Origin: Posidonia oceanica | Taxonomy: Eukaryota; Streptophyta; Magnoliopsida; Alismatales; Posidoniaceae | Reading direction: 5' to 3' | Assembly (NCBI GenBank): GCA_037176725.1 | Contig: JAZBRS010000059.1 | Location: 8,295,001-8,359,000, forward strand | DNA: 64,000 bases | In this document: positions 12,059-45,172 of the stretch, piece after piece | How the letters are laid out: every line of letters begins with the position of its first letter | How positions within the stretch are numbered: the stretch's first letter is position 1 | Position numbers and translations under genes: made by a program | Notes under the pieces: generated by a model | Seen by the model: only the letters and a program-made list of their open reading frames with translations | Told to the model about the DNA's origin: nothing | Database searches by the model: none

Positions 12059-13133
12059 CATGTATGCTTTCTAGCATGCTCTCCCTCATCAATCTAGTGT
12101 ATCCTAGTAGGTAGCCTACTTCGGATACTCACAGGTGTACGGGTCACCGACTCAGGTCAGAAAAAGCAGGTCCCCTGTCTAAATCCTAGCCAAAGCTTAG
12201 GTAATAACAGGGTGGTGCGTTGGTGGCCCTGACCCCACCAAAGCGTGGGTAGTACCCTCCACTAGCACTGACACGACCCCTAGACACGGGGGGACAGACC
12301 GACTGACTTGGGCCACGTCAAAAGCAGTGGAACAAGAGGTCGGGACCGTCCTTCGCAGATTGATAGGTGGACTCAGATGAGAGGATACAAGCCCTATATG
12401 AAGCTTTATGCAAATGATTAGAGTTTTTTATCTTGCGTGTTTTATTAACTCAAAGGGGGTGTAGGTTTGTTGAGGTCTCTAGTTGCTCCTAGAACTTCTT
12501 TTTACTTGCCATTTTTAGTTAGCCACAGGGAAAGCAATTAGTCTCTACTATCCTAGGCATGGCATGTGCAAAAGGGAAGAAAATCAACCAAATATGGCAG
12601 GCAAACAACATACATCACTGCAAAAGGCAAGTGCATGGCATGTGCAGGTGTTTGTGAGCATAATAGTGAAGGGAAAACATTCATCATATCAAAAGGCATA
12701 TATACAGGGCATGTGCGTGTATAGTGGCGTAGCAAGTGTGTGCAAGAAGCATTCATCACTCAAAAAGCATGTATTGTTGCCAAGCAAGTATGTAGACATG
12801 CATTATGCGAGAAATAAAGTAGTAATAAGCCAATAGATAAAGAAGGTAAAGACAGGTAAGCAGTAAAGCAAATAAGAACAGAGCAAGTAAACAAGCAAGA
12901 AAGTCAAAGCAACCAAAGCAGAGCAAACAATAAAGCATGCCAAGGCAAAGCAAGCAAAAGAAGTGTGAAACCCAAGCAAAGTCGCTACAATGCGACTCGC
13001 TAGGAATTGGCATAGGGGAGCAAACAAACAGGCAAAGGAGACAAAGGCACAAGGCAAGCAAAGAAAGCAAAACCCAAGCGGCGAAAAAACCAAAACGAAA
13101 GCCGGAGTCTAGTATCCCCAATGGAGTCGCCAC
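12059..13133 (-). repeat. second copy of the O 5' leader
   Basis: 1075 bp, the same length as and nearly identical to 38164-39238. It sits directly left of the O 3' LTR, i.e. where host flank would be expected. Homology starts exactly at CATGTATGC (12059 versus 38164). It contains the PBS at its right end and a GCAAAG-rich stretch (12840-13080). Open frames on both strands here simply repeat those at 38.7-39.4 kb and show no protein family. Confidence 0.9.
13114..13132 (-). promoter_or_regulatory. O-type primer binding site (left copy)
   Basis: Minus-strand TGGCGACTCCATTGGGGA one base after the LTR end. The same form occurs at 39219-39237. Ogre elements are known for tRNA-Arg-type PBS sequences starting TGGCGACTCC; that assignment is from memory of the family. 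Confidence 0.65.
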
Positions 13134-13829
13134 TGTAGTAATCCTGGTGTTTGGATCGTCCATGCACACTGCCAAAGCTCGCGTGCACCGATCAGAATTA
13201 GGTTCAGTATTAGTGGCCGTGTCCGAGAAGGAAGACTTGATTCAAAAACACTTTAAAAAGGGAAAAAAGGAAAGAAACGAAGAAGATAAGACAAATAAGA
13301 GTCGCCACCGTGTCTATTAATTCGGGAGACAAGGAAAATCGGAGAAATGCATGAATAAACACGCAAAACCAAGCAAAAGATGCAATACGATGCAATGCAA
13401 AAGAAATGGGATGCAATGAGATGCAAATGATGTGACTCATGCCTAAGATAAGGGCAATATGGTCATTGCAGGCCAAGAGAAAGGGGAAGGACTCCGGTTA
13501 CGTGCGGGGAAGGTATTAGGCACCCCCGACACGCCCAAGAATCGGTCTTTCTAGGCTTACGCTCGCATACGCAGGGAAATGCATACTTTGAATGCCTAAG
13601 TGCCATGAATGTCTAATTAGATGCTCAAAGGTGTGGTCTAAGTGATGAAATGCGTGTAAGGAATTAAACGTGCTATCTAAGTGCTCAGCAATGCTGTCTG
13701 TGTTCCGAACCAGGTGAACCCTGGTTCGTGAGAACTCCAGGCAGTAAACATCACTGCCCTAAATGCAAATGCAGGCGATAAAACAAAACATCGGTAAAAA
13801 TAGGCAATGCGGGCGACATTCAAGGGAAA

Positions 13830-14085
13830 ACAACGTCAAACATGCAAAACGGTGCAAGAAACAAAACGAGCACGTAAAACGGTGCAAGAAACAAAGAGGG
13901 CACGCAAAACGGTGCAAGAAACAAAGCGGGCATGCAAAACGGTGCAAGAAATAAAGCAGGTATGCAAAACGGTGCAAGAAACAAAGTGGACATGCACAAC
14001 GGTGCAAGAAACAAAGCATGCACGTAAAACGATGCAAAAAACAAAGCGGACCCGCAAAATGGTGCAAAAGCAAGCGAAAACAGGC
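13830..14085 (+). repeat. 30-bp array in O 3' LTR
   Basis: About 8 units of GCAAAACGGTGCAAGAAACA plus a 10-bp variable end. Since 30 is a multiple of 3, all six frames give 10-residue periodic pseudo-proteins; none is credible as a gene. The same array occurs at 39945-40205 and, inverted, at 28060-28455. Confidence 0.9.
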
Positions 14086-14859
14086 GATGCAAGTGCGGAA
14101 ACAAAACATCGTAAAAATCGTGCAATGCAGATGTAAAAACATGCAAAGGGAGAGAGTAAAACAAGTAAGGAGAGGCAAGCGGTGTAGATGTGAAAACAAA
14201 CACTGCTTAAGGACCACACAATGCAGGTGTGAAGACCTGCAAAGGGGAAAGGAAGCAAGCAGAGGGATTGCCACTACCTTGTGATTGTTTCCCACTAAAC
14301 CGTCCCAAGATGTGTCTCGCACGCTGCCAAAAACTCGCGGTGCAATCGGATCATGGAAAAGGGGGAAGAAGGTCGCAATCAGTAGTGAATCCAAGGAGAA
14401 CTCAACCCAAAAACACTAAGAGTACGCGAAAAGAGGGAGTAGAGTGGATAGGCAAGAACAGGAGACCAAATCTACATGCATGAAAACGATGCATGCAATG
14501 CAAGTGATATGCAACAATGTGCTATGCAGTGGTTCAGAAGGACTTACCTTGGAGATCTGAGGCCTGATCAGAGGTAAACTTGGTCAGCATGGGAGTTCAC
14601 TCCACCAAGGTGGTCCAAGTAGCTTGGTCGCGAAGATCTGGCGGTCCGATCAGGAGTTGCACAGGCCTCAAGATCAGAAGACCCAAGAACCAGAGGAGGA
14701 GAAGGGATCTAAGTGCAAAAAAAGGTCCTAAAGGTGTGCAGAAGAGGGCCTCCCACATACAAGGGAGCTAAAGATGCTTAAAAGTGTGCTAATATGCTAA
14801 GTGCAATGATGTATGGGTGCAATGCATGAAAAAATGCAAGAAAAGGACTCAAATGTGAT

Positions 14860-15180
14860 TAAAATGCAAACCTAGGGACCTAAATGCAATTATTTTGAAA
14901 AGTTAGGGGCCTAAATGTGTTGATTTTGAAAAGATAGGGACCTAAATGCAATAATTTTGAAAAGTTAGAGACGTAGATGCAACTAAATGCAAAGCCAATG
15001 GCCTAAATGCAATGATTTTGAAAAGTTAGGGACCTAGATGCAACTAAATGCAAAACCAGGGACCTAAATGCATTGATTTTGAAAACCTAGGGACCTAAAT
15101 GTAATTTATTTGAAAACCTAGGGGTCTGGATGCAATGTTTTTGAAAACCTAGGGGTCTAGATGCAATAAAAACAAGTTTG
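14860..15180 (+). repeat. degenerate ~38-bp array in O 3' LTR
   Basis: Repeats of GGGACCTAAATGCAAT followed by a TTTTGAAAAGTT-type end. Weaker relatives (ACTAAAATGCAA) continue to about 15870. The matching array in the other LTR is 41020-41330; relatives in the solo LTR appear inverted at 26760-27660. Confidence 0.8.
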
Positions 15181-18100
15181 TGGGTTTTTCAATAATGCAA
15201 TAAGGTTTTAAAACTGGGATTAAATGAAATCTGAATGGACTGAGGACCAAAATGCAAATGCAAATGCAAATGCAAAGAAATGCAGGGTCTGAAATGCAAT
15301 GTAATATGGAAAAATGCAATTTAAATGAATGTTGTGAATGCATGCAGTGGACTAAAATGCAAATTAAATACATGCAGGGGCTAAAATGCAATTTAATATG
15401 GCAAAGTATGAGATTAAATGATTTTTCTAACATGTAGAGGACTGGAAAGTAATAATAAAATAAAACAGGATAAAAGTACAATGTAATATGGTAAAATAAG
15501 AGATTAAATAAATCTAACAACTGAACAGAGGACTGATTTGTAAATAAAATAAATAGCAAGAGAAAAAAGCAATGTAATAAGGTAAAGACATGCATTTAAA
15601 TGACATTTATCAACTGGAGGACCTAGATGCAAAATAAATAAATAGCTGGACTAAAAACTAAGAGACAGTAAAGTATTTTGAATTACAGTAGGACTAGCAT
15701 ACAAATAAAAGAAATAACAGGGCTAAAACTAAAGAAAACTTAAAAAGCTTTGAACTGTAGAGGGACCAAGATGCAATAAAAATAAATGGCAGGACTAAAA
15801 CTAAAAGAAAATAAAAAACTTTGAACTATAGTAGGACTAACATTTAATAAAAGAAACTACAGATTTTTCATGCAATGTTATATAGTTTTTATTTAGAATT
15901 AAATCAAACTTAAACTGTGGCTGGACCCGAAAGAAAATAAATAAAACTGCAAGGAAGAGATGCAATACGATGGTAAAATTTCTAAGTTAACAGAAAAATA
16001 AAACGAAACCGAAATGTAAGGCATTAAAATAACTAAACTACTGTAGCTAAACTTGCAAACGCCTGCGTCGGAGAAGGGAGCGTGATCCGGCGGAGCAAGG
16101 GGGCTGGCGAGTTGCGGTGGACGTTCCCGGAGGTCAGAGGCTGGTCAGCGAACCGTGACGGAGGGCTGAGCAGACCGGAGGAGGCGGCGGAGCTCTGCAG
16201 GAGGTGCTGGAGCCAGGCCGGAGGCTGCGGGCGTTCCCGGCGAAAGCAGAGGACGGGACGGAGTTCCTGGGACCTCCACGGTGCTAGGAGGGCGATCGGC
16301 AAGGGCTGAGCGGGCTGGAGGCAGGTCTGCACGCAGAGAGCTCGCCGGAGAAGAAGGGTCCATGACGACGACGACTTTGCACGACGGGGAGCAGAACCTA
16401 CTTCTAATGGGTTGGGAAGCAAGAGGAAGAAGAAACTAGACTAATGGCAATGAGGGTAACCTTTTTCCGCGGCTGGTGTGCTCTCCCGACGTCGGTGGGT
16501 TGAGCAGAGGACGGCGGCATTGGTGCAGCTACTGCGGGCGCTCCTGGTGGCACACGACGATCTGGATCGACTCCTGGCGGTGCTTTGGAGCTCAGAGGCA
16601 GCATAGGCGCGAGTTTGCACGCCGGAGGAAGGGAAATGGATTTCTGGGTTCAGCTGGTTCAGCCGGAGGTGGGGGTGGCGCTCTGTCACTCCCTGAGCTG
16701 GGTGGAGACTTCCGGTGGGTTGCTGTGAGCCTGGTGAAGGTGAAGGAGGCTTTGAATTGGGTCGGTGGAGGCTGTGGTGGGTGTTTGCAGGTTTGGTGGA
16801 TTTCGGCTGAAAATGGGTGCAAGTGTTTGCTGTGGAGTGTCTGGGCTGTGGTGGGTCTGAAGGTGGAAGGTCGGGTGGTCTGGAAAGGTGATGGTTGGGT
16901 GAATGCCGTGGAGGAGTTGGAGGGGATTCTGTGGACAGGAGTGTTGGGAATTTTCGAGTGGAAGGTGGTCTGTGCTGTGAGTGGTGGGTGGGGTGTTTGG
17001 GGTTGATTGCGGGGAGTAGGCGGGGCGGTGGAGGTGGGGAATGGATGCTGGGTGATTGGGTGTAGTTTGAGGAAGAAGATGGGAGAGTTTGGAGGTCTGA
17101 GGAGGTCTGATGCTGGGAGAAGGGAGTTGGATTTTTCAGAGGAAGGAGGAGGGGAATTCTGGCTTGCTCACGCTCTCTCTCTGGTTCTCTCAATTCTGGC
17201 AAAGGTGTGGAGAAGGAGAAAGCTGAGGGTTGGTTTTAACTGGAGACCAAGCGCGAACGGTGGATTTGAATCCACGGACGTGGGGAGACTGCAGCTGAAA
17301 GGAGAGCTGGTCGGCGAGGCGACGCGCAACCGCCCGGAGTAAATGCTGCCATGGAAGACATGCTGCCAAGGATGGGAGGGCTGAGAGAGGGTGTGAGAGC
17401 AGAGGTGGCAGGCTGGTGATGGCAACGGAGGGGGAAATTTGGATTTGAAATCGGAGAGAAGGCTGTGCTGTTGGGCGCGGGAGAAAAGAAGAAGGAAGAA
17501 GAAGCAGAAGGGAAGGAGGAGGGGCAGAAGCAGTGGGCCACCGAAAAAAAAGAAAAAAAAGAAAGAAGGGAGAGGAGCAGGTGGGCTGGACTGCGGGGGA
17601 AAGAAAAAAAAAGAAAAGGAGGGGAAGAGAGCTGCAGGTGGGCTGGGCCGGATTAAAAGAAAGGAAAAAAAAGAAAAAAGAAAAAGGAAAGGAGATGGAA
17701 AGGGAAAAGAAAATGAAAAAAAGGATTTGGAAATATTTTTAGAGTAGTTATTTTTAGGTTAAGATAGTTAGGGTTTAGGGGATTGTTTTTTAATTTTTTA
17801 AATTAGGGTTAAGAAGGGTTTTAGTTTTGTTTAAGTTTTTATAACTTTTCTTAAGTTTTTCTTTAAATTGTTTTTTAAAGTTTGTTTTAAATGTTTGTTA
17901 AGTTTTTTTAATTATTTTTAAGTTAATTTTTCTTATTAAGTTTTTTCTCTTTTTTTCTTTTTAGTTAAGTCTTTTTAATTGTTTTAAGTTTTTGTTTTAA
18001 TTGTTTCTTTAGGTTTGTTAATTGTTTGCTGTTGATTTTTAATTACTCATCCTAGGTTTTTTGATTGTTTCTTCTTTCTTAGGATTTACTTTTGGTTGTT

Positions 18101-19052
18101 GTTATTTTTAAAAGGGTTCTTTCTTTTTGTTTGTTTTGATTATGTTTATCTTTTGTTTGTTTTTTAATAGCATTTTCCTTTTGTTTGTTTTATATTTTTG
18201 GATTGCATTCTTAGTTTTTAATTGCTTTTTAGCTGGATTTTTCTTTTAATTGTTTGTTCAAGTCTTTTAATTATTTCTTTTTAAGGTTCTGATTTGTTTC
18301 TCCTTATGTTTTCCTTTTTAATTAGAGTTTTAGGGGTTTAATGTGGAAGAAAGGAAAAGAAAAAGGAGAGGAAGAAGAAAAGAAAGAAAGAGAGGGAGAA
18401 AGAAAGAAAGAAAGGGAGGGGAGGAAAGAAATTAAAGATCAGAAAATCAAGAGATAAAATAAAATGAAATAAAAATATAGATAAAATAAAGGAAGGAAAG
18501 AAGCATAAGGGGGGCCCACTGGAAAGCAAGAAAAGGAGAAAGAAGGAAGGGAAAAGAAGGAGAATGAGAAGGAGGATAGAGAGGAAAGAGAGGAAAGAGA
18601 AAAGAATAATTTGGAAAGAGAAAAGGATAATGTAGAGAGATGAGAATGATAAAGGCTTCGATTTGGAGTGGGATTGGGTGAGTGTGTGACCTAGGGTTTC
18701 TAAGATTTGACTTAGGGTTTGAAGTGGGATTTTGGAAGGTTTTTGGATGGATTTTGGGTCTAGAAAAAGGGTGGTTCTACCTAGGTTTTCTAGGATTTTT
18801 GGGAGTAGTTTTGGTAGGAGATTCTAAGGGTTTTTTGGAGGATTTTCTAGGTTGAAAAGGATGGGTTTTCCTATGATTTTTGGATGGTTTTTGGGTTAGA
18901 AAATGGGTGTAGTTTTAGGTTTGGTTTAGGGATTTGTTTTGGAGTTTTGGTTTAAAAAGAAGAGTGTGGTTTTGGGTTTAGGTTAAGGTGTTTGGTTCAG
19001 AAGCCACCAGAGAGATTCCACTAGTTCAGCCTGTCAAAATGGGGTGTCTACA

Positions 19053-19066
19053 GATGCCCCTCCCTG
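19053..19066 (-). promoter_or_regulatory. polypurine tract of element O
   Basis: Minus strand CAGGGAGGGGCATC immediately before the LTR's TGTAGACA. It is the right position and composition for the plus-strand primer of reverse transcription. Confidence 0.75.
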
Positions 19067-19525: not shown

Positions 19526-20560
19526 GATAAGATATCGGACTTATCGGCCGGAGGGTGATAGTTTACGGTCCTATCAACCGAAAGCGATAGTTTACGGTCT
19601 TATCAACCGGAAACGATAGTTTACGGTCCTATCAACTGGAAAGAGTGATAGTTACTGGATATCAACCAGAAAACATGATTGCGCAAGATAGTTTCGGATA
19701 TCAGCCGAAGAGAGATAGTTTACAGTCCTATCAACGGGAAGCGATAGTTTACGGTCCTATCAACCGAAAGTGATAGTTTACGATCCTATCAACCGAAACG
19801 CAATCATGAGTGATAGTTACTGGATATCAACCGGAAAACGCAAATGCCCGCGATAGTTTTGGATATCAACCGAAGAGAGATAGTTTACGGTCCTATCAAC
19901 CGGAAGCGATAGTTTACGGTCCTATCCACCGGAAGCGATAGTTTACGATCCTATCAACCAGAAAGGGGCGTTTGTGAGTGATAGTTACTGGATATCAGCC
20001 GAAAAACACAACAGCTGGTGATAGTTTTGGATATCAGCCAAGGAGAACGATAGTTTACGGTCCTATCGACCAGAAGCGATAGTTTACGGTCCTATCAATC
20101 GGAAATTATAGTTTACGGTCCTATCAAACGGAAAGTGCAGTTGTGAGTGATAGTTACTGGATATCAGCTGAAAGAGTGATGAGTTTCGGATCATCAGCCG
20201 GAGAACGATGAGTTTCGGATCATCAGCCGGGAGAATGATGAGTTTCGGATCATCGGCCGAAGAGATGATTGAATTGATTGATAAGATATTGGACTTATTG
20301 ACCGGCAGATGAACAAGTGATAAGATATTGGACTTATCGGCCGACAAAAGAATAAGTGATAAGACATCGGACTTATCAGCCGGCAAAAGAATAGGTGATA
20401 AGATATCGGACTTATCGGCCGACAAAAGAATAAGTGATAAGATATCGGACTTATCGGCCGGCAAAAGAATGAATGATAAGATATCAGACTTATCGACCGG
20501 CAAAGGAATGGGTGATAAGATATCAGACTTATCGACCGGCAAGGGAATGGATTTTGCGAG
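19526..20560. repeat. tandem array of interlocking inverted repeats (pseudoknot-capable)
   Basis: About 30 units in three sub-blocks. Block 1 (19526-20170) has ~29-bp GATAG...CTATC units alternating with longer GATA...TATC units. Block 2 (20178-20260) has GATGA...TCATC units. Block 3 (20278-20545) has 39-bp GATAAG...CTTATC units. Each unit has arm 1 (GATAG, GATAAG, GATGA or GATA), then arm 2 (CGGT, TCGG, CTGG or TTCGG), then the complement of arm 1, then the complement of arm 2 (ACCG, CCGA, CCAG or CCGAA). The order 1-2-1'-2' is the H-type pseudoknot order. Both arms change together between unit types. Located between the PMD gene and the 3' LTR of O. Confidence 0.85.
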
Positions 20561-20570
20561 AGCAGATCAT

Positions 20571-20689
20571 CCCGTGATATCTAGGAATATCATGGGGGAA
20601 AGATAGGGGGAGTGATACCAAGGGGCGGTCAAAAAGATGCCCCTGGTATCAAGATGATGCCAGGAGTTGGCTAGCGCGTCCTTGGTATC
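20571..20689. repeat. cluster of three strong hairpins
   Basis: 20571-20596: a 10-bp stem CCCGTGATAT/ATATCATGGG (one wobble), loop CTAGGA. 20614-20650: GATACCA-A-GGGGC with GCCCC-TGGTATC, 12 pairs and one bulge, 12-nt loop. 20656-20689: GATGCCAGGA with TCCTTGGTATC, one wobble and one bulge. They directly follow the pseudoknot-type array. Confidence 0.75.
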
Positions 20690-21035: not shown

Positions 21036-22232
21036 TAGTTGATTCGGGCTTTCTTTGACTTTCTGGAGTCGGGGAACAAGGGAGCACCAAGAGGTATCTC
21101 ACTGATGGGCCAAAGCGCCTGCACCTCTGTCAGGTATTCAGGAGTGCATCCCGAGTCTTGCGCGGATGCTATGTCAGTAGACCGCACTCCATGCTGCATC
21201 AGATCAGCTAGCTTAGTTGTAGCAGATGTCGAGCCAAATGGATATGTCTAGAGGAGCCTAGGGGCGGTGCTGTCTATGAAGGCGCCCTGCTGGAGGCCGA
21301 ACTGCCGCATGACCCGGATGGGGTGTACTCCACACCCCCGGTGAATCTTGGCAGCACAACAAGTCACGCATCACGGGTGCCAAAGAAGATAGTGAAAGGC
21401 TCGGTCGCGGATGGAATGATACACCATGCTACGGTGTCATCAGTCATCTCTAATAGCTTCTTATATTCTTCTAGGACGCTTTTGATTGTCCTGGCATGGC
21501 CGCTATTGCAGTATGTCTCAATAGCATTGCCCCGGGGGCGCAGTATGTCCAGTTCTAAATGTGCAGCCAACCAGATCTATACTAGCACTCCGCAGCCGTG
21601 GAAGTGGCGGCAACGATGAGAGATGCGGTCCAGCCTGCGGTAGGTTTCAGTCAGGACAACTGGTGCCAGGTCTATCGGGTCACCACAGCTAGTGCGATTT
21701 CAGCAATTTCTATCGCAACTGTCATCCGACCATGTGTGAATATCAGCTCGCCCAAAAATCGGGTGACAAATCTCCGAAGCCATAGATCGTCTCCGAGCTC
21801 AGCACACTTGTCCACAATCTCATCAAAGTAAGTCAGGCGCAGCATGGGCGTAAGGCCGTTGGTGCAGATCAATCTTTGTTGGCACCGATCAGTAGAGAGC
21901 CCAGATAGTTTGCTCAAGACCGTTATGTACTTGTCACACCTCATGAAGATGGGAGATCCCATTAGTCGGGAGAAGCTACAGATTCGACGCACCTCTACCA
22001 GTGTAGGTGTCAGCTTTGTCCTTCCGAAGCGGAAGACATGATGCACCGGCTTTCAGAATCTTGCGGCAGCGCACAGGAGGTGTCGGCTTACTTCGACATC
22101 AGCCACCTTCAGCAGTTTAGTTGGTATGCCCCTGAGGCGCAGCTTTTCACAGTCATCCTAAGTGAGCTTGCCAATCCAACCCTGCAGAGTCTCAGAGCAG
22201 TGTACTGGGGTCCCGAGAGTGGGGTAGCCCAT
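21036..22232 (-). pseudogene. plant mobile domain (DUF7745-like) gene in element O
   Basis: Reads leftward from MGYPTLGTPVHCSETLQGW (22232) through PVHHVFRFGRTKLTPTLVEV and RRICSFSRLMGSPIF, then CQQRLICTNGLTPMLRLT, ELGDDLWLRRFVTRFLGEL and TVAIEIAEIALAVVTR. After frame breaks it continues LELDILRPRGNAIETYCNSG, TIKSVLEEYKKLLEMTDDTV and PFTIFFGTRDA, ending in SRKSKKARIN and a TAG at 21036-21038. Stops near 22155 and 22050 and others around 21600-21680 inactivate it. The W/L-rich PMD blocks and basic tail match the other two PMD copies in order but not closely in sequence, so it is a separate lineage. It lies between pol and the 3' LTR on the sense strand. Function of such cargo is unknown. Confidence 0.78.
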
Positions 22233-29166: not shown

Positions 29167-30352
29167 TTGACGGGCTCAGACTGCTCGACCTAATCCATGT
29201 CCTCAAGAGTTACAGCGCAGCCCGAGAAGACCTGCTTAACCACAAAGGGCCGCGCCAATTAGGTCGGAATTTCCCTCGACCATCAGGTAGATGAATGGTG
29301 CGTAAAACAAGGTCTCCTGACTGGAAGCTTCTAGGCTGAACCTTCTTCAAGTATGATCTGGCCATTCGCTTCTGGTAACAGTGAGCATTATGCATAGCTT
29401 GCAGCCTATGCTCATCAATTAGATTTAGTTGGACGCAGCGGTCTTCGACCCATTCTGCTTCTTCCAACTCAGCTTATCGTAGGATCCGTAGTGAGGGGAT
29501 CTCTACTTCGATAGGCAACACCGCCTCCATGCCATACACTAGAGAGTATGGGGTGGCTCCTGTTGAAGTCCGGACAGATGCCCTATACGCCCAGAGTGCG
29601 TAAGGAAGCCTGTCGTGCCAGTCCTTGTGACTTTCCGCCATCTTTTTCAGGATCTTAACCAGGTTCTTGTTGGCAGACTCTACTGCGTCGTTCATCTGCG
29701 GCCGATAAGGCGAGGATTTGTGGTGTTTGATGCTGAAGCTCTGCAGATAGTCTTCGATCCTCTTGGCGATGAAATTCATGCCGTTATCAGAGATGAGCGC
29801 ATGCGGGACCCCATGCCGGGCTATGATATTGTTTCTGATAAACTTTTCTGTAGCCACGGCAGTTACTGTTTTGTAAGAAGTCGCTTCCACGCACTTAGTA
29901 AAGTAATCGATCGCTACCAGAATGTAGCGATGACCATTGGAAGCTGCAGGGTGGATGGCACCAATGACATCAATCCCCCAAGTAGAGAAGGGCCATGGCG
30001 ACGACATGCTATGCAATTCCTATGGGGGCGTCTGAATGAATTTACCATGCACTTGACAGTTGTGGCATCTGTGCACGAACCGGCAGCAGTCTGCTTCCAT
30101 AGTTAGCCAAAAGTAGCCTTGAAGCATTATCTTCTTGGCTAAGAGTACGTCGTTCATGTGCGGGCCACAACTCCCCGCATGCACTTGAAGCATCAACGTG
30201 TCAGCCTCCGATTTGTTCAGACAGCGCAGGAGCGTTTGATTGTATAACCTTCTGTACAACTGTCCCGCCCTTAGTACATACTTTGACGCCAGACGCGTCA
30301 GAGTTCTTTTATCTGCTGCTGAGGTACCAGGTGGAAGGCTGCCAGATTCCAA
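29167..30352 (-). pseudogene. O integrase (H2C2 zinc finger, DDE core, C-terminal domain)
   Basis: Integrase inserts the cDNA into the host chromosome. Reading leftward: a zinc finger with HAGSCGPH and CHNCQ (30190-30050); the catalytic core with Asp in STWGIDVIG (about 29970), Asp in ISDNGMNF (about 29790) and Glu in DAVESANKNL (about 29685), so all three DDE residues are present; then GATPYSLVYGMEAVLPIEVE and the C-terminal domain FQSGDLVLR and KFRPNWRGP (29330-29250). Damage: stops at about 30018 and 29472 and a one-base loss near 29253. The last residues continue at 23732-23685 beyond the solo LTR. Upstream neighbour is RNase H. Not functional as it stands. Confidence 0.88.
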
Positions 30353-31242
30353 GAAAGTTTTTATGTCGTGAAACTAGGGCTACTCCTCTGCTGGATCCAC
30401 CTCTTCTATGTTCATGCAGTGCGCAGGCTGCTCTATGCGAGTAACAGATACATCCACTGTGCTGTCTTCAGGTATGCTGAGCCAGGACGCCAGGGTTGCC
30501 AATGCATCTGCATATGCGTTCCTTGCTCAGTTCATGTATGTGAAGCGGATGCTCGCGAACTCTTCTATCAGTTTTAGCAGGTGTTCATGATATGGCAGTA
30601 ACTTTGGATCCTTTGTCTTCCAGTCGCCATTAACTTAAGAAATCACCAGTATGGCGTCGCTGTGCACAAGCAGCTTCTGTATCTCATGCTCGAGGGCGAC
30701 ATTCAGTCCTAGGATGCACACTTCATACTCTGCCTCGTTGTTGGTGCATTTGAAGGTTAGCTTCCTCGCGAAGGGAATCATCTGTCCCTGAGGCGTTGTC
30801 AGCACTGTGTCTATGCCTTGACCCTTCTTGTTCACAGCACCATCAAAGTATAACTGCCACTGCTCTTGATCATTAGGGTCTTTCTCCTCAGAGTCCTCCA
30901 TTGCAAAAAGAATGTCTTCATCTGGGAATTGTGTCTGGAGTGGCTAGTATTCAAGCAGAGGGAAATCAGCAAGATGGTCTGCCAGAGCTTGGCCCTTCAT
31001 GGACTTCTAAGTGACAAAGGTGATGACAGTAGCACCTACCACTTAACACATCTGCCTACCATGAGCTGAACTGGGTATGCCATCATATAATGCCTTAGTT
31101 TCTGTGCAACCCAGATAAGAGATAGGCAGGTCTTCTCTATTGTACTGTACCTGGCTTTGCATTCATTGAACTTCTTGCTCAGGTAATAAATGGCGCGCTC
31201 CTTTCTACCTGACTCATCAAGTTGGCCCAAAACGGCGCCCAT
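30353..31242 (-). pseudogene. O RNase H domain and RT connection
   Basis: RNase H degrades the RNA strand of the replication hybrid. The connection piece includes MGAVLGQLDESGRKERAIYY, SKKFNECKARYSTIEK and WVAQKLRHYM (31242-31080). The catalytic fold follows with Asp in WQLYFDGAVNKKGQG (about 30855), Glu in TNNEAEYEVCILGLN (about 30735) and Asp in LVHSDAILVIS (about 30645). Stops at about 30632, 30530 and 30390, plus a frameshift between 31040 and 30905, break it. It lies between RT and integrase in standard Ty3/gypsy order. Confidence 0.85.
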
Positions 31243-32160
31243 GAATGCTGTGTGGTAGAAAGATAGAGAAGTAAGGGTCTCCCTGGTGTAGGGAGAACCA
31301 GGACAGGAGGCTTGATCAACAACTGCTTGATTTTGTCAAATGCAGCCTGGCACTCCTCGCTCCAATCGATCTGTGCATTCTTCTTCAGGAGCTTGAATAT
31401 TTGCTCGCAGATGGGCGTAAGCTGTGTAATTAAGCGACTGATATATTGTAAACGCCCTAACAAGCCCCTGACCTCCTTTTCAGTCCTAGGGGGTGGCATG
31501 TCCACGATGGCTTTTGCCTTCATCGGGTCTACTTCAATCCCCCTTTGGTTAACAATGTAGCCCAGAAGTTTGCCAGAAAACACCCCGAATACACACTTGT
31601 TGGGGTTGACGTGCAGCTTATACTTTCTCAAACGGTCAAAGAGCTTCTTCAAACAGGCAAGATGATCCTCAGGCTCTTTGGTTTTGGCAATCATATCATC
31701 TACATATACCTCCACTTCTTGTTGCATGAGGTCGTGGAACAGTGCAGTCATGGCCCTCTGATAGGTTGCGCCAGCATTTTTCAGCCCAAACGACATAACT
31801 TGGTAGCAGAAGACTCCCCAAGGGGTGATGAATGAAGTCTTTTCCATGTCTTCTTCTGCCATTTTGATCTGGTTATATCCGGAGAAGCCGTCCATGAAGG
31901 AAAGTATCTTACGGCCCGCTATATTGTCGACTAGGACGTCAATGTGAGGAAATGGGAAGTCGTCTTTGGGACTCGCCTTGTTCAGGTCCTATAGTCGATA
32001 CAAATCCAGACTCGACCATCTTTCTTGGGCACAGGTACAATGTTTGCCAGCCACTCAGGATAAAGGACGACCTTTAAGAAATTGACTTTATGCTGCTTCA
32101 TGATCTCTTCTTTGATCATAAGCAGCCACTACGGTCGCCATCTTCTCAGTTTCTGCTTTA
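31179..32160 (-). pseudogene. O reverse transcriptase
   Basis: RNA-directed DNA polymerase. N-terminal fingers are frameshifted but readable: KPVKQKLRRWRP then a stop (about 32127), VLYPEWLANIVPVPKKDGRV, ICIDYR. The intact stretch starts MDGFSGYNQIKMAEEDMEKT (31895), with TSFITPWGVFCYQVMSFGLKN and ATYQRAM. The active site is YVDDMIAKT (about 31700), then HVNPNKCVFGV, GKLLGYIVNQRGIEVDP and RLQYISRLI. The first catalytic Asp falls in the damaged part near DYRT; the YVDD pair is present. Typical Ty3/gypsy RT, Tat/Ogre type by the size and layout of its element. Confidence 0.92.
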
Positions 32161-34823: not shown

Positions 34824-37800
34824 GGGTGAAGGCTCAATAGTCTAGGACACATGAGCAGCTTGGAACACGCAAAGAAAAGCTTCGCGGTGTTCGGCAGAGG
34901 TGTGTATCAGGTCCCAAATGGAAATGTCGGCTTTGACCTTCTTAAGCTGAGAGGTAATGTCAGCCTTGGGTTGGTTCTTCTTGACAGTAGAGGGTGGCTT
35001 TGGTGGCAAGCTCTAAAGGGACGGTTACAGGGGGTTGGCTATAGGCCTGGCTTGCTATAGGTTGGGTAGAGGTTTGGCCTACTATGGGTTGGCTAGAGGC
35101 CTGGTCTACTATGGGTTGGCTAAAGGGTGGGGGCATAGTAGGTTCTGGATAGTTTGGCCTAACCGTTGGTGCTGGGGGTCTGTAGACCCTCCCCGATCGT
35201 GTTACTTCCACACACATTTCTGTGGCGTAACTGTATGGTACGCGATGGGTGTCCTAAGTTAAATCAATAACCACAGGAGCACGTGCCACAAGCACAAGAG
35301 GGGCTGCAGGGGTGCCTATTGGATACTGGGGAGAAAGGTAAGGTTGTTGGGGAGGGAAGGCAGGGGTTGGCTGAGGTCTGCCTAAAAGGTGTACAGGGGA
35401 TCCTAACTGAGGCCATCCTAAGAGATGGACAGGGGATCTAGGCTGGGCCCTAGCTAGGAGGTGTACAGGGGATTGAGCCTGAGGAAGCACAGCAGGGGGC
35501 GTGAAGGATCGCTCCGGCCTGGCACGCGGTCGGATCATGTGAACTCCCGACTCGGGGTTGGCAACAGCCGCGAGATAAAGATTAACAGGAAAGGGCTCAG
35601 AGATATCAAAGATGAGTACAGAAGGGTCTACCACGGACGTAGTAGGCTCAGAAGGGAAGAGAGAGTGAATTCCTGAGGTTCCCGTACCTCCCGGATAAGA
35701 GTGCTCTGGTAGAGGTTGGCAGACGATGCTGGAATGAGGAGGAACAGATGAATGAGCAGATGCATGAGTGGGTGTATGAGTGGATGCCTCGTGAGTGTCG
35801 ATCACAATCGTTCCCGATTCGATGAAGTCCTGAAAAACATTCCGCAGGGTGAAGTAATTGTCCGTCGAATACCCGACGCTTCGATGGAAATTGGAAAAGA
35901 GCTTCGCCTTATGCCAATGCGGCAAGGGATTTAGGGGCGGGTGAACCTCCGGGAATCTCAGGAGCGATGCAACCTTCGGCAAGATGGCCGTCAGCGGTTC
36001 CACCAGTGGGGCGAACTTCTGCTTCTCAGTGGATGGCCGTCTTTACCTTGGGTATGGGCCTTGCTGAACCGGTGCGGTGGGATAGACCGGTCGAGCAGTG
36101 GTGGTGATCTGTGGTGTGGGAGCATTCCTAGGGGCAGGAGCATACACCATCTGAGCTGGGGCAGGCCGAGACGGCAGGTGAACAGGCGCAGCAGGAGAAT
36201 CGACGAATGCAACAGCGGTCTTCGGAGAGTCTTTCTTCTTGAGACGATTGTTGTTGCTACCGCTGTTGTTGCTGGTGGTTCTGTTGTTAGCGCTGTTACT
36301 GCTAGTCGCAGCCTGGTTAGCGAACGCAGAGAGAGCAGGGAACTTGCCACTCCGCAACGAACTCTCCATGCGCGCTCCAGCTCGGATTAGTGCTGCAAAA
36401 GTAGTGACAGGTTGAATGCTAAGCAAAGCCACGAGAGATGGCTGTGCCTCCTTGATAACGATCTCAATAGACTCCTCATCAGAGGGTCTATCTCAGACTT
36501 GTGAAGCAAGGACGCGCCAGCGGTCGACGTACTCCCCGAACGGCTCGCTGGGATTCTGCTTGGTTGCAACCAGGTCCGCGCGCTTTGGGCCAGGTCGAGG
36601 TTGAAGGAATATTGTTCCAGGAATGCCTGACTGAGGTCGTTCCAAGTCTTGATGGCTGACATATCAAGCGAGGTGAACCACTTGAGTACCGACCCGGTCA
36701 AGCTCTTCTGGAACAGGTGGATCAGCAACCTCTCGTCAGCCTGAAGCTAAGCGAGATCACCACAATACACCTTCAGATGTGCTATGGGACAGCCCTTACC
36801 ATTATATTTGTCGAAGTCCGAGATTTTAAACATCAAGGGGAGTACCGCCTCTGGAAAGTAACAATGGTCCCGGAACTGGTAGGTCTGGTGCTCAGTACCC
36901 TGCACTAGTCGTAGTGCCTTCTCCAAGACATCCATTCTGTTATTGATGGGGTCTGGATTTGCTACCGCAAGAGAGGGATCGGCAGGAGTAGCGAGCACAT
37001 ATGCCGAGTGGGTCACACCTAAGTGCTCCTCTGGATCTACAATAGCGTCACCTGGTGGAGCAACGGGATGGCCGGCATATCCGTGCGCTGGTACAGTGTA
37101 TGCTGGAATGTATGTAGGATTCTGGACCTGATGCAGGAGAGGAGGATAAATGACATGCTATGCAGTGGAAGGTGTAGTGTGCTGGAGCATCAGTTGCTGC
37201 CCAGGCAGGGTGCCAAACAGTGAGCCAATGGGGTACTGTGCTCCAACCAGCCCGAAGGACTGGCCACCAGGGGGCAGAGGTGCATGCTGTGCTATGTGTT
37301 GTGCTGTGGGAGGCGGAAACCGGGCCCCCATCTTCGGAACCGTGAGCAGTTGAGACGATGGTCTAGGCGGAGGTGTAGTGGCAAGTGTATGATATGTAGG
37401 AACTGGCCGCAGGGGAACCTCAGGAGCGGCAGGAATGAAGGAGGGATGAACCGATAGAGCCATGCCTTGCAATCTCTGGGCGAGCTCCATCAAGTGCTGG
37501 TACTGTGCCTCAGGCATCCCGTCAGCGGGAACGCTGAAGTGCAGTGCCGGCGAGGGATGAGAAGCAAGTGGCACGGACATAGACTATCCGAGAGAAACAG
37601 GCCCTACAGCAAGAGCCGCAGCAGCGGTAGAAGGGACGTCAATGGTGACGTATCCTTGAGAAGGAGGGGTCAAAGGCGTCACTGGAATGCGAGTGACGGT
37701 CACCAAGATGGACTCGGCGACTAGATCCAGAGGGGCAGATGTTTGCCAATGCCCCGGGACGAACTGGGATACCAGAGGCGTCAGGGGGGAAAACCCTAGC

Positions 37801-38163: not shown

Positions 38164-39238
38164 CATGTATGCTTTCTAGCATGCTCTCCCTCACCAATCT
38201 AGTGTATCCTAGTAGATAGCCTACTTCGAGTACTCACAGGTGTACGGCTCACCGACTCAAGTCAGAAAAGGTAGGTCCCCTGTCCAAATCCTAGCCAAAG
38301 CTCAGGTAATAACAGGGTGGTGCGTTGGTGGCCCGGACCCCGCCAAAGCGTAGGTAGTACCCTCCACTAGCACCGACACGACCCCTAGACACGGGGGGAC
38401 AGACCGACTGACTTGGGCCACGCCAAAAGCAGTGGAACAAGAGGTCGAGACCGTCCTTCGCAGATTGATAGGTGGACTCAGATGAGAGGATGCATGTCCT
38501 ATATGATGCTTTATGAAAATAATTAGAGTTTTTTATCTTGCGTGTTTTATTAACTCAAAGGGGGTGTAGGTTTGTTGAGGTCTCTAGTTGCTCCTAGAAC
38601 TTCTTTTTACTTGCCATTTTTAGTTAGCCACAGGGAAAGCAATTAGTCTCTACTATCCTAGGCATGGCATGTGCAAGAGGGAAGAAAATCAACCAAATAT
38701 GGCAGGCAAACAACATACATCACTGCAAAAGGCAAGTGCATGGCATGTGCAGGTGTTTGTGAGCATAATAGTGAAGGGAAAACATTCATCATATCAAAAG
38801 GCATATATACAGGGCATGTGCGTGTATAGTGGCGTAGCAAGTGTGTGCAAGAAGCATTCATCACTCAAAAAGCATGTATTGTTGCCAAGCAAGTATGTAG
38901 ACATGCATTATGCGAGAAATAAAGCAGTAATAAGCCAATAGATAAAGAAGGTAAAGACAGTTAAGCAGTAAAGCAAATAAGAACAGAGCAAGTAAACAAG
39001 CAAGAAAGTCAAAGCAACCAAAGCAGAGCAAACAATAAAGCATGCCAAGGCGAAGCAGGCAAAAGAAGTGTGAAACCCAAGCAAAGTCGCTACAATGCGA
39101 CTCGCTAGGAATTGGCATAGGGGAGCAAACAAACAGGCAAAGGAGACAAAGGCACAAGGCAAGCAAAGAAAGCAAAACCCAAGCGGCGAAAAAACCAAAA
39201 CGAAAGCCGGAGTCTAGTATCCCCAGCGGAGTCGCCAC
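38164..39238 (-). repeat. O 5' leader (right copy) with PBS
   Basis: 1075 bp, nearly identical to 12059-13133. The PBS TGGCGACTCCGCTGGGGA (39219-39237, minus strand) follows the LTR end by one base. A GCAAAG-rich stretch lies at 38945-39185. No coding region supported. Confidence 0.9.
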
Positions 39239-42200
39239 TGTAGTAATCCTGGTGTTTGGATCGTCCATGCACACTACCAAAGCTCGCGTGCACCGATCAG
39301 AATTAGGTTCATTATTAGTGGCCGTGTCCGAGAAAGAAGACTTGACTCGAAAACACTTTAAAAATGGAAAAAAGGAAAGAAACGAAGAAGATAAGACAAA
39401 TCAGAGTCGCCACCGTGTCTATTAAGTCGGAGATAAGGAAAATCGGAGAAATGCATGAATAAACACGCAAAACCAAGCAAAAGATGCAATGCGATGCAAT
39501 GCAGAAGAAATGGGATGCAATGAGATGCAAATGATGTGACTCATGCCTAGGATAAGGGCAATATGGTCATTACAGGTCAAGAGAAAGGGCAAGGACTCCT
39601 ATTACGTACGGGGAAGGTGTTAGGCACCCCCGACACGCCCAAGAATCGGTCTTTCTAGGCTTACACTCGCATACGTAGGGAAATGCATACTTTGAATGCC
39701 TAAGTGCCATTAATGTCTAATTAGATGCTCAAAGGTGTGCTCTAAGTGATGAAATGCGTGCAATGAATTAAACGTGCTATCTAAGTGCTCAGCAACACTG
39801 TCTGTGTTCCGAACTGGGTGAACCCTGGTTCGTGATAACTCCAGGCAGTAAGCATCATTGCCCTAAATGCAAATGCAGGCGATAAAACAAAACATCGGTA
39901 AAACCAGGCAATGCGGGCGACATGCATGGGAAAACAACGTCAAACACGTAAAAAGGTGCAAGAAACAAAACGGACACGCAAAACGGTGCAAGAAACAAAG
40001 AGGGCATGCAAAACGGTGCAAGAAACAAAGCGAGCACGCAAAACAGTGCAAGAATCAAAGAGGGCATGCAAAATGGTGCAAGAAACAAAGCAGGCACGCA
40101 AAACGGTACAAGAAACAAAGCATGCATGCAAAACGGTGCAAGAAACAAAGCATGCATGCAAAACAGTACAAGAAACAAAGCGGACACGCAAAACGCTGCA
40201 AAAGCAAGTGAAAATAGGCGATGCAAGTGTGGAAACAAAACATCGTAAAAATCGTGCAATGCAGGTGTAAAAACATGCAAAGGGAGAGAGTAAATTTAGT
40301 AAGGAGAGGCAAGCGGTGTAGATGTGAAAACAAATACTGCTTAAGGACCACACAATACCGGTGTGAAGACCTACAAAGGGGAAAGGAAGCAAGCAGAGGG
40401 ATTACCACTACCCTGTGACTGTTTCCCACTAAACCGTCCCACGATGTGTCTCGCACGCAAAAAAAGCTCGCGGTGCAATTGGATCGTGGAAAAGGGGGAA
40501 GAAGGTCGCGATCAGTAGTGAATCCAAGGAGAACTCAACCCAAAAACACTAAGAGTACGCGAAAAGAGGGAGTAGAGTGGATAGGCAAGAACAGGAGGCC
40601 AAATCTACATGCATGAAAACGCAGGGCAAAAACGATGCATGCAATGCAAGTGATATGCAACAATGTGCTATGCAGTGGTTCAGAAGGACTTACCTTGGAG
40701 ATCTGAGGCCTGATCAGAGGTAAACTTGGTCAGCATGGGAGTTCACTCCACCAGGGTGGTCCAAGTAGCTTGGTCGCGAAGATCCGGCGGTCCGATCGGG
40801 AGTTGCACAAGCCTCAAGATCAGAAGACCCAAGAACCAGGGGAGGAGAAGGGATCTAAGTGCAAAAAAAGGTCCTAAAGGTGTGCAGAAGAGGGCCTCCC
40901 ACATACAAGGGAGCTAAAGATGCTTAAAAGTGTGCTAATATGCTAAGTGCAATGATGTATGGGTGCAATGCATGCAAAAATGCAAGAAAAGGACTCAAAT
41001 GTGGTTAAAATGCAAACCTAGGGACCTAGATGCAATTATTTTGAAAAGTTAGGGACCTAAATGTGATGATTTTGAAAAGATAGGGATCTAAATGCAATAA
41101 TTTTGAAAAATTGGGGACCCAATTGCAACTAAATGCAAAGCCAAGGGCCTCAATGCAATGATTTTGAAAAGTTAGGGACCTAGATGCAACTAAATGCAAA
41201 ACCAGGGACCTAAATGCAATGATTTTGAAAACCTAGGGACCTAAATGTAATTTATTTGAAAACCTGGGGGTCTGGAGGCAATGTTTTTGAAAACCTGGGG
41301 GTCTAGATGCAATAAAAACAAGTTTGTGGGTTTTTCAATAATGCAATAAGGTTTTAAAACTGGGATTAAATGAAATCTAAATGGACTGAGGACCTAAATG
41401 CAAATGCAAAGAAATGCAGGGTCTGAAATGCAATGCAATATGGAAAAATGCAATTTAAATGAATGCTGTGAATGCATGCAGTGGACTAAAATGCAAATTA
41501 AATATATGCAGGGGCTAAAATGCAATTTAATATGGTAAAGTATGAGATTAAATGATTTTTCTAACATGCAGAGGACTGGAAAATAATAATAAAATAAAAC
41601 AGGATAAAAGTGCAATGTAATATGGTAAAATAAGAGATTAAATAAATCTAACAACTGAACATATGACTGATTTGTAAATAAAATATATAGTAGGAGAAAA
41701 AAGCAATGTAATAAGGTAAAGACATGCATTTAAATGACATTTATCAACTGGAGGACCTAGATGCAAAATAAATAAATAGCTAGACTAAAAACTAAGAGAC
41801 AGTAAAGTATTTTGAATTACAGTAGGACTAGCATGCAAATAAAAGAAATAACAGGGCTAAAACTAAAGAAAACTTAAAAAGCTTTGAACTGCAAAGGGAT
41901 CAAGATGCAATAAAAATAAATGGCAGGACTAAAACAAAAAGAAAATAAAAAGCTTTGAACTACAGCAGGACTAACATTTAATAAAAGAAACTACAGATTT
42001 TTCATGCAATGTTATATAGTTTTTATTCAGAATTAAATTAAACTTAAACTGTGGCTGGACCCAAAAGAAAATAAATAAAACTGCAGGGAAGAGATGCAAT
42101 ACGATGGTAAAATTTCTAAGTTAACAGAAAAATAAAACGAAAGCGAAACGTAAGGCATTAAAATAACTAAACTACTGTAGCTAAACTTGCAGACGCCTAC

Positions 42201-45172
42201 GCTGGAGAAGGGAGCGCGATCCAGCAGAGCTGGAGGGCTGGCGAGCTACAGTGGACGTTCCCAGAGGTCGAAGACTGATCGGCGAGCCGTGACGGAGGGC
42301 TGAGCAGACCGGAGGACGCGGCGGAGCTCTGCAGGAGGTGCTGGAGCCAGGCCGGTGGCTGCGGGCGTTCCCAGCGAAAGCGGAGGACGGGACGGAGCTC
42401 CTGGGACCTCCACAGTGCTCGGAGGGCGATCGGCGAGGGCTGAGCGGGCCGGAGGCGAGTCTGCGTGCAAAGAGCTCGCCGGAGAAGAAGGGTCCACGGC
42501 GGCGATGACTTTGCGCGACAGGGAGCAGAACCTACTTCTAATGGGTTGGGAAGCAAGAAGAAGAAGAAACTAAACTAATGGCAATGAGAGTTACCTTTTT
42601 CAGCGGCTGGTGTGTTCTCCCGACGTCAGTGGGTTGAGCAGAGGACGGCGGCGTTGGTGTAGCTGCTGCGGGCGCTCCCGGCAGCACGCGGCGATCTAGA
42701 TCGACTCCTGGCGGTGCTCCGGAGCTTAGAGGTAGCACAAGCGCGAGTTTGCACGCCAGAGGAAGGGAAATGGATTTCTGGGTTCAGCTGGTTTAGCCGG
42801 AGGTGGGGGTGGCGCTCTGTCACTCCCTGAGTTGGGTGGAGGCTTCTGGTGGGTTGCTGTGAGCTTGGTGAAGGTGAAGGAGGCTTCGAATTTGGTCGGT
42901 GGAGGCTGTGGTGGGTGTTTGCAGGTTTGGTGGATTTCGGCTAAAAATGGGTGTAAGTGTTTGCTGCGGAATGTCTAGGCTGTGGTGAGTCTGAAGGTGG
43001 ATGGTCGGGTGGTCTGGAAAGGTGATGGTTGGGTGAATGCTGTGGAGGAGTTGGAGGGGATTCTGTGGACAGGAGTGTTGGGAATTTTCGGGTGGAAGGT
43101 GGTCTGTGTCGTGAGTGGTGGCTGGGGTGTTTGGGGTTGATTGCGGGGAGTAGGCTGGGCGGTGGAGGTGGGGAATGGATGCTGGGTGATTGGGTGTAGT
43201 TTGGGGAAGAAGATGGGAGAGTTTGGAGGTCTGAGGAGGTCTGATGCTGGGAGAAGGGAGTTGGATTTTTAAGAGGAAGGAGGAGGGGAATTCTGGCTTG
43301 CTCACGCTCTCTCTCTGGTTCTCTCAATTCTGGCAAAGGTGTGGGGAAGGAGAAGGCTGAGGGCTAGTTTTAACTGGAGGCCGAGCGCGAACGGTGGATT
43401 TGAATCCACGGACACGGGGAGACTGCAGCTGAAAGGAGAGCTGGTGGGCGAGGCGACGCGCGACAGCCTGGAGTAAATGCTGCCGTGAAAGACACACTGC
43501 CAAGGTCGGGGGGGCTGAGAGAGGGTGTGAGAGCAGAGGTGGCAGGCTGGTGATGGCGACGGAGGGGGAAATTTGGATTTGAAATCGAAGGGAAGGCTGT
43601 GCTGTTGGTCACGAGAGAAAAGAAGAAGGAAGAAGAAGCAGAAGGGAAGGAGGAGGGGCAGAAGCAGTGGGTCACCGAAAAAAAGGAAAAAAAAGAAAGA
43701 AGGGAGAGGAGCAGGTGGGCTGCGCTGCAGGGGAAAGAAAAGGAGAGGGAGAGAGCTGCAGGTGGGCTGGGCCGGATTAAAAGAAAGGAAAAAAAAAAAG
43801 AAAAAAGAAAAAGGAAAGGAGATGGAAAGGGAAAATAAAATGAAAAAAAGGGTTTGGAAATATTTTTAGAGTAGTTATTTTTTGGTTAATATTTTTAGTT
43901 AGGGTTTAGGGGATTGTTTTTTAATTTTTTAAATTAGGGTTAATAAGGGTTTTAGTTTTGTTTAAGTTTTTATAATTTTTCTTAAGTTTTTCTTTAAATT
44001 ATTTTTTAAAGTTTGTTTTAAATGTTTGTTAAGTTTTTTTAATTATTTTTAAGTTAAGTTTTTCTTATTAAGTTTTTTCTCTTTTTTCTTTTTAGTTAAG
44101 TCTTTTGAATTGTTTTAAGTTTGTGTTTTAATTGTTTCTTTAGGTTTGTTAATTGTTTGCTGTTGATTTTTAATTACTCATCCTAGGTTTTTTGATTGTT
44201 TCTTCTTTCCTAGGATTTGCTTTTGATTGTTGTTATTTTTAAAAAGGTTCTTTCTTTTTGTTTGTTTTGATTATATTTATCTTTTGTTTGTTTTTTAATA
44301 GCATTTTCCGCTTGTTTGTTTTATATTTTTGGATTGTATTCTTAGTTTTTAATTGCTTTTTAGCTGGATTTTTCTTTTAATTATTTGTCCAAGTTTTTTA
44401 ATTATTTCTTTTTATGGTTCTGATTTGTTTCTCCTTATGTTTTCCTTTTTAATTAGAGTTTTAGGGGTTTAATGTGGAAGAAAGGAAAAGAAAAAGGAGA
44501 GGAAGAAGAAAAGAAAGAAAGAGAGGGAGAAAGAAAAAAAGAAAGGGAGGGGAGGAAAGAAATTAAAGATCAGAAAATCAAGAGATAAAATAAAATGAAA
44601 TAAAAATATAGATAAAATAAAGGAAGGAAAGAAGCATAAGGGGGGCCCACTGGAAAGCAAGAAAAGGAGAAAGAAGGAAGGGAAAAGAAGGAGAATGAGA
44701 AGGAGAATAGAGAAGAGAGAGAAAAGAATAATTTGGAGAGAGAAAAAGGATAATGTGGAGAGATGAGAAGGATAAAGGCTTGGATTTGGAGTGGGATTGG
44801 GTGAGTGTGTGACCTAGGATTTGACTTAGGATTTGAAGTGGGATTTTGGAAAGTTTTTGGAAGGATTTTGGGTCTAGAAAAAGGGTGGTTCTACCTATGT
44901 TTTCTAGGATTTTTGGGAGTAGTTTTGGTGGGAGATTCTAAGGGTTTTTTGGAGGATTTTCTAGGTTGAAAAGGATGGGTTTTTCTATGGTTTTTGGATG
45001 GTTTTTGGGTTAGAAAATGGGTGTAGTTTTAGGTTTGGTTTAGGGGTTTGTTTTGGAGTTTTGGTTTGGAAAGAAGAGTGTGGTTTTGGATTTAGGTTAA
45101 GGTTAAGGTGTTTGGTTCAGAAGCCACCAGAGAGATTCTACTCGTTCAGCCTGTCAAAATAGGGTGTTTACA
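39239..45172 (-). repeat. O element 5' LTR, 5.93 kb
   Basis: Minus strand TGTAAACACCCT to GGATTACTACA. It has the same block order as 13134-19052 with scattered substitutions and small indels (a ~37-bp loss in the GC-rich/purine part near 43740; a ~17-bp gain near 40620). Its right edge cuts the T integrase reading frame at 45172/45173; the adjacent 5 bp, GCCAT, are the expected target duplication. A splice donor at 40693/40694 matches the one in the other LTR. A 131-codon Pro-rich frame (42941-43336) corresponds to a 253-codon frame in the 3' LTR and ends early at a stop. Confidence 0.95.
39945..40205 (+). repeat. 30-bp array in O 5' LTR
   Basis: About 8 units of GCAAAACGGTGCAAGAAACA with a variable 10-bp end; counterpart of 13830-14085. 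Confidence 0.9.

Follow-up and report, generated by a model that had tools for sequence, protein, structure and literature searches.

The window analysed here, a stretch of 64,000 nt at positions 8,295,001-8,359,000 of the forward strand of contig JAZBRS010000059.1 (Posidonia oceanica, assembly GCA_037176725.1), holds a retrotransposon bounded by two copies of a 7-kb stretch, its LTRs (Table 1). Its domains lie on the minus strand, place it in the Tat clade of Ty3/gypsy elements and make it Ogre-like; the giant Ogre-like element proposed in the first-pass annotation of this DNA is thereby borne out. Besides the domains listed in Table 1, a weak protease match, under its cut-off, has been found on the minus strand between the LTRs. 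The polyprotein includes the second RNase H that characterizes the Tat clade, and it is located between RNase H and the integrase; an archaeal-type RNase H in this place marks the angiosperm Tat subclades Ogre and Retand according to PMC6317226 and, being common to both, is not decisive. The LTRs of ~7 kb fall outside the 315-1,194 bp of the recently active Retand set, and the only extra ORF seen is a 3' one on the sense strand; the TRP28 ORF of Retand is antisense. Since the domains, the polypurine tract and the LTRs are all on the minus strand, the tandem array that is our subject is situated 3' of the polyprotein, ~470 bp ahead of the 3' LTR, and its sense strand is the minus strand; its earlier assignment to the 3' region of the element was thus correct.

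Table 1. Features of the element and of its tandem array (positions in the window)
Feature	Position	Strand	Remarks
3' LTR	12059..19052	-	BLAST, 94% identity with 38164-45173; p-distance 0.047; minus-strand start TGTAGACACC
Polypurine tract AGGGAGGGGCATC	19053..19065	-	Read in the sequence; abuts the 3' LTR start
Tandem array, 30 units	19526..20542	- (sense)	Minus-strand unit CGG-N-GATX-N-CCG-N-X'ATC
Lone T1 unit (GATAAG/CTTATC)	19526..19551	-	3' edge of the array in sense
Higher-order repeat of ~165 bp, T2 T2 T2 T3 T4	19557..20174	-	Arm 1 GATAG/CTATC or GATA/TATC; similar order in related arrays
Three T5 units (GATGA/TCATC)	20178..20261	-	Unit pattern
Seven T1 units, 39-bp period	20280..20542	-	Unit pattern
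12-bp GAT/ATC hairpin CCCCTGGTATCA-NNN-TGAT[A/G]CCAGGGG	20640..20666	-	Pairing not perfect in the window (a T-G and a C-A position)
Extra ORF piece	21675..22052	- (sense)	Just upstream (in sense) of the array; no Pfam match itself
Integrase core	29477..30019	-	rve, E 7e-14
Second RNase H	30638..30943	-	RVT_3, E 2e-7; between RNase H and integrase
RNase H	31039..31335	-	Upstream (in sense) of the second RNase H
Reverse transcriptase	31182..31988	-	RVT_1, E 6e-26
gag fragment	36390..36746	-	Retrotrans_gag, E 6e-5, 23.6 bits, slightly below the cut-off of 24.1
5' LTR	38164..45173	-	BLAST partner of the 3' LTR

An inverted LTR-like stretch inside the element (23738-29161, 68-84% similar) is probably a nested related LTR, and further tandem arrays of 30-bp units occur within both LTRs (13844-14067 and 39945-40201). 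The integrase gene of an older, related element seems to hold the insertion (11853-12017 and 45173-45406). That older element has arrays of its own (5125-6444), composed of different units; visual inspection of its CCGG-type inverted repeats showed complementary arms (CCAG/CTGG) in one unit and no match in others.

The array consists of 30 units by the fuller unit pattern and 29 by a stricter one, in agreement with the earlier count of about thirty and with the order S1-S2-S1'-S2' then described. On the plus strand each unit begins with arms 1 and 2 and continues with their complements in the same order; the arms were first written on this strand, while the loops of the sense (minus) strand are better suited to an H-type pseudoknot. 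Five forms are present in the window: T1 (8 units), T2 (GATAG/CTATC, 12 units), T3 and T4 (both GATA/TATC, 4 and 3 units) and T5 (3 units). The T1 tract (20087-20566) is also an open sense frame of 13-residue repeats, 160 codons long; it is open in some relatives too, with 233 codons in the related copy L008.

A search of the 2.96-Gb genome with the array returned 12,260 first-look candidates, not every one of which need be an array, and 40 of them were scored. We took all 39 scored matches other than the window. The 472-bp flank yielded 39 further places, of which we added 38, the remaining one being a copy already present as L010; a T6 tract likewise yielded 39 further places, of which we added 20. 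The resulting 98 places, window included, contain 2,967 units, detected by similarity to eight templates and independently of pairing; five places have only 2-12 units (L049, L050, L051, L053 and L057), and L058 and L069 appear to be duplicates of one copy. The order of units is broadly kept in most related arrays, some of which carry further forms: T6 (GATG/CATC), T7 (GATGA/TCATC), T8 (GATAAG/CTTATC) and, in one subfamily, T9 (GATG/CATC). Outside this genome, the exact T2 pattern had no match in viral contigs and the T1 pattern none in prokaryote genomes; integrase and reverse transcriptase queries revealed no relative in viral contigs, an alignment of the reverse transcriptase giving one viral-contig locus at 32% identity and none in prokaryote genomes.

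The first of the two pairings, arm 1 (GATX/X'ATC), is Watson-Crick in 148 of 151 cells in the window, where two clear paired changes are seen, from GATAG to GATAAG and from GATA to GATGA. Partner shuffles over the 30 window units reached the observed pairing in 0 of 1,000 trials among all types and in 1,000 of 1,000 within types, and, with the best-pairing member standing for each type, 6 of the 120 type permutations of the window alone matched it. Across the 98 arrays, where X is A, AG, AAG, G or GA, arm 1 is perfectly complementary in all 11 forms compared, as anticipated by the first-pass annotation, which had claimed that the arm 1 pairs change together. In these 11 forms, T9 standing outside the test, permuted partners equalled the own pairing in 6 of 20,000 cases, or in 18 and 12 of 5,040 with one form per type, counts that are not probabilities because the forms are related. 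With G-U allowed, the contrast is weaker (93 of 20,000 on the sense strand and 731 on the antisense strand); G-U-type pairs are absent from arm 1 in all 11 forms. To connect the five arm 1 states at least four paired changes are needed, and by sequence comparison these are the strongest evidence that we have. The passage from T4 to T5, for instance, requires a second matching insertion, which is provided by only 1 of 108 possible insertions, by none of 27 deletions and by none of 81 substitutions. Two-sided changes of arm 1 within types amount to one across the six types T1-T6 in the first 78 places.

Variation within forms was counted in the same 78 places, as were the constraint rates and the dependence of T4 on its slot, with units under half the maximal score (11 T4 and 1 T6) excluded from the within-form count. 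Sites with A or T are mostly 97-100% constant within forms, while C and G sites vary, often by 5-18% and mainly from C to T or G to A. Such variation would fit the decay of methylated cytosines after insertion; it says little on selection. At A/T sites, on the other hand, the rate of change (calculated from forms other than T7 and T8 in copies other than the window) is 0.64-0.66% in arm 1 and 0.96% in the rest of the core, or 0.6-1.0% in the cores overall, against 2.4-2.7% in T1 spacers, 4.7-5.9% in T2 spacers and, in the 3' flank, 2.8% in flank-selected and 5.2% in array-selected copies. This contrast may be inflated, since the detection of units favours intact cores and columns with less than 75% agreement were skipped; it is also seen in the 38 copies chosen by their flank. 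The earlier view that the units are not simply drifting is therefore upheld by the related copies. Since at A/T sites the loops and arm 2 vary hardly more than arm 1, low variability by itself is no mark of the stem. Compared with decay rates taken from the LTR pair, the window has 3 changes in arm 1 (6.8 expected, P 0.09), 24 in arm 2 (16.3 expected) and 11 in the loops (3.6 expected); with arm 1 no less changed than decay predicts, and arm 2 and loops more, the window alone shows no constraint.

The pairing of arm 2 (CGG/CCG) is not clean. In the window it is Watson-Crick in 97 of 126 cells, the others being 19 G-T, 8 A-C and 2 other combinations on the plus strand. The arm 2 pairs reported at first turned out to be those of the best-pairing members only, CTGG/CCAG occurring in one of the four units of its type, TCGG/CCGA in one of eight, and TTCGG/CCGAA in one of three units in each of two types. 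An apparent arm 2 covariation obtained from such members (2 of 120 permutations) was rejected as biased, because, once each type is represented by its commonest form, the own pairing is matched by 100 of 120 permutations and is no better than that with partners dealt among the types. Partner shuffles over the 30 units reached the arm 2 pairing in 205 of 1,000 trials among all types and in 323 of 1,000 within types. A test of wobble pairs by strand yielded nothing in favour of the sense RNA in the window, where no departure from a type's commonest form is compensated by a change in the partner arm. Among the related forms the arm 2 value was reached by 230 of 20,000 permutations, and by 180 and 516 of 5,040 with one form per type. 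Non-Watson-Crick pairs are fixed in some of these forms: in the CGG/CCG core T3 has T-G (256 of 303 units) and T8 has C-A, and T1 has T-G as an outer pair. T5 repeatedly shows a C-A variant (42 of 179). By the criterion of the first-pass annotation, for which relatives with arms not kept complementary would be counter-evidence, arm 1 holds in all 11 forms compared and arm 2 does not hold cleanly.

In the first 78 places, two-sided changes of arm 2 are close to independence in T1 (18, with 22.0 expected), T2 (33 and 31.7), T3 (21 and 19.9) and T6 (2 and 2.0), and exceed it in T4 (66 and 36.8) and T5 (22 and 13.6). The excess in T4 follows the slot of the unit in the array: the 248 units comprise 64 C-G, 120 T-A, 31 T-G, 6 C-A and 27 others, C-G being found mostly in slot 1 and T-A mostly in later slots. 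Arm 2 also co-changes between CGGT/ACCG (T2 and T7) and CGGC/GCCG (T6). Both of these co-changes exchange G-C for A-T, the product of the commonest mutation here. Taken together, the comparison of forms argues weakly for a second, interlocking pair.

Concerning the folding of the units, a strict scan for pseudoknots (both stems of at least 4 bp, 9 bp in total) identified 11 places in the array, or 10.6 per kb, and 52 elsewhere in the window, or 0.83 per kb. By our reading four of the 11 correspond to a unit's own pairing and seven pair neighbouring units or other bases, which makes the phase of the units ambiguous. The pairing of the best-pairing unit of each type was equalled in 0 to 3.25% of the shuffles of that unit. 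The fold of the sense strand is better than each of 20 shuffles (z -4.4), and so is that of the antisense strand (z -2.4). Rfam detected no family at gathering score in 19000-21000. The distance from GAT to ATC spans 16-20 bp and broadly rises with the length of the stem, while the loop is steady at 7-10 nt, as in a hairpin and unlike a rigid site of fixed spacing. The array is likely a conserved hairpin-like module. That the variable X bases are complementary within one array, with a spacing that is not rigid, would suit RNA or single-stranded DNA; the RNA reading is made uncertain by the absence from arm 1 of G-U pairs, commonly accepted in RNA stems, and by the small number of independent events (five arm 1 states in related forms).

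Our preferred explanation, for which we see about an even chance, is that the array is a conserved, cis-acting module of hairpins in the 3'-UTR of a high-copy Tat/Ogre-like retrotransposon, acting as a multivalent protein platform. Each unit would fold into a small hairpin in the RNA of the element or in its single-stranded cDNA, with GAT/ATC as the outer pairs and A, AG, AAG, G or GA as inner pairs that vary in concert; the loop, 7-10 nt long, holds CCG (CCA in some forms), and a CGG-like triplet lies 1-3 nt ahead of the hairpin. On the sense strand of most forms this triplet could engage the loop in a compact H-type pseudoknot, the second pairing being optional. Acting jointly, about thirty such modules would offer multivalent binding to one of the element's proteins, either Gag or that encoded by the extra ORF next to the array, and might in this way serve RNA export, packaging or reverse transcription. 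The extra ORF recurs in many copies (53,645 first-look candidates, 150 of them scored) and is open for up to 452 codons in relatives; in the relative L004 a 201-aa piece resembles the Plant mobile domain (E 1.4e-7, below the cut-off). That its product binds the array is our conjecture.

Paired GAT/ATC sequences are not confined to the units. The hairpin just beyond the array (20640-20666) is matched, with at most 7 substitutions, in 87 of the 98 places, one T position facing G in 56 of them and A in 31, and a best-hairpin score of at least 8 was obtained in 78 of 98 regions beyond the array versus 20 of 92 control regions. The inverted repeat CCCGTGATAT-CTAGGA-ATATCATGGG at 20571-20596, which is the best hairpin in some related copies, likewise extends the GAT/ATC pairs past the array.

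A stronger form of the preferred explanation, with which its chances overlap, is that the sense RNA forms a true repeated H-type pseudoknot whose two stems are both selected. A pseudoknot in the units is possible as far as rough modelling can tell; that both stems are selected we find somewhat doubtful. In a rough model which imposes a minimum of 2-3 nt on loop 3, nine of ten forms make the knot on the sense strand with the S1-S2-S1'-S2' order and loop lengths of the H-type (loop 1 of 1-2 nt, loop 3 of 3-5 nt over a 3-4 bp stem), and in eight of these nine the antisense knot is weaker or absent. With G-U allowed, 101 of 20,000 permutations attain the arm 2 value for the sense strand, against 10,508 for the antisense strand. 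However, T3 has no sense pseudoknot and is modelled on the antisense strand alone, T4a, the exception among the nine, is better on the antisense strand, and the stability is marginal: the sense knots are roughly valued at -0.35 to -5.4 kcal/mol and the nested hairpins at -1.7 to -6.3; the knot comes within 1.5 kcal/mol of the hairpins, is unfavourable in eight of nine forms, and is preferred only in T5b. The departures of arm 2 in the window, which lean towards G-T over A-C on the plus strand, run opposite to the bias expected of a sense RNA, and the arm 2 permutations at one form per type are weak. The H-type pseudoknot of the first-pass annotation is thus retained in its order and in the covariation of arm 1, while its second stem is weakly backed. 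In its boldest version the 3' untranslated RNA would be a beaded chain of about thirty diversified pseudoknots, selected across thousands of copies and possibly serving as a packaging or export signal, a picture that we consider rather unlikely.

Alternatively, the array may work as DNA, an element or host protein binding GAT...ATC inverted half-sites and thereby countering silencing or directing transcription, in a manner resembling the VANC proteins of VANDALs. Unlike the present element, VANDALs are DNA transposons. Their VANC-binding motifs in Arabidopsis, as described in PMC5735166, are short, accumulate through tandem repeat formation in noncoding parts of the element and diversify as sets, and the present array is likewise a short motif tandemly multiplied in a noncoding transposon part. 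The conservation of the cores would suit binding sites equally well, arm 1 lacks G-U-type pairs, and the extra ORF that adjoins the array in many copies could encode the binder. We nevertheless regard this alternative as rather improbable, because a protein reading only the GAT half-sites gives no reason for the complementarity of the variable inner bases and the spacing of the half-sites is not fixed; moreover, the VANC motifs are described in PMC5735166 as having one orientation.

It is also conceivable that the array is neutral and satellite-like. Its arms would then owe their complementarity to hairpin-templated correction, a template switching that accompanies replication or reverse transcription, and its forms would be spread by unequal exchange. 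Templated correction would change both arms in one event, arrays of no known function are common before Tat 3' LTRs (PMC7004042, PMC11963269), and both the C-to-T/G-to-A character of most within-type variation and the near independence of two-sided arm 2 changes in T1, T2, T3 and T6 are in line with neutrality. We hold it to be unlikely, as under the same exchange the A/T sites of the cores are ~2.4- to 9-fold more constant than those of the spacers (by a measure that somewhat favours intact cores) and the order of units is broadly kept among copies. Finally, that the 39-bp units encode a 13-residue repeat is very improbable despite the open frames of the T1 tract in the window and in L008, since adjoining units of other lengths break the frame, the lack of stops makes repeat-bearing ORFs expected (PMC6317226), and the L008 frame has no Pfam family above cut-off.

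Tandem arrays between pol and the 3' LTR are common and family-specific, their function being unknown in Ogre (PMC7004042) and in Retand (PMC11963269), and these Tat-lineage arrays share with the present one the second RNase H as clade mark and the same place in the element. They are a source of plant satellite DNA (PMC7004042); in Retand, according to a survey of 2025, neither their origin nor their function is known (PMC11963269). Arrays at this position are thus already known, from Retand; what differs here, going by the portions of these sources at hand, is the conserved behaviour of the paired arms. Arrays of the Tat lineage have been called hypervariable, whereas in the copies that we compared the cores and, broadly, the order of units are kept. 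The text of PMC11963269 available to us contains neither 'secondary structure' nor 'hairpin', and 'palindrom' only in a reference; among the literature matches listed, no title or opening of an abstract pointed to paired arms in arrays of Tat or other plant LTR retrotransposons.

The constitutive transport elements of retroviruses are structured RNAs located 3', which recruit an export factor. Like them, the array would be a repeated RNA structure near the 3' end, and by this analogy a role in export can be conjectured. The parallel is made attractive by Ogre RNA, of which some is spliced and some is not (PMC6317226).

One such array behaves here as a conserved module whose arms are complementary, and its element has candidate copies in the thousands. 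If the preferred reading is right, a concrete function, be it an RNA structure or a protein platform, can be offered for a feature usually seen as neutral repeat turnover. A chain of pseudoknots, if true, would explain in structural terms why Tat elements carry tandem arrays.
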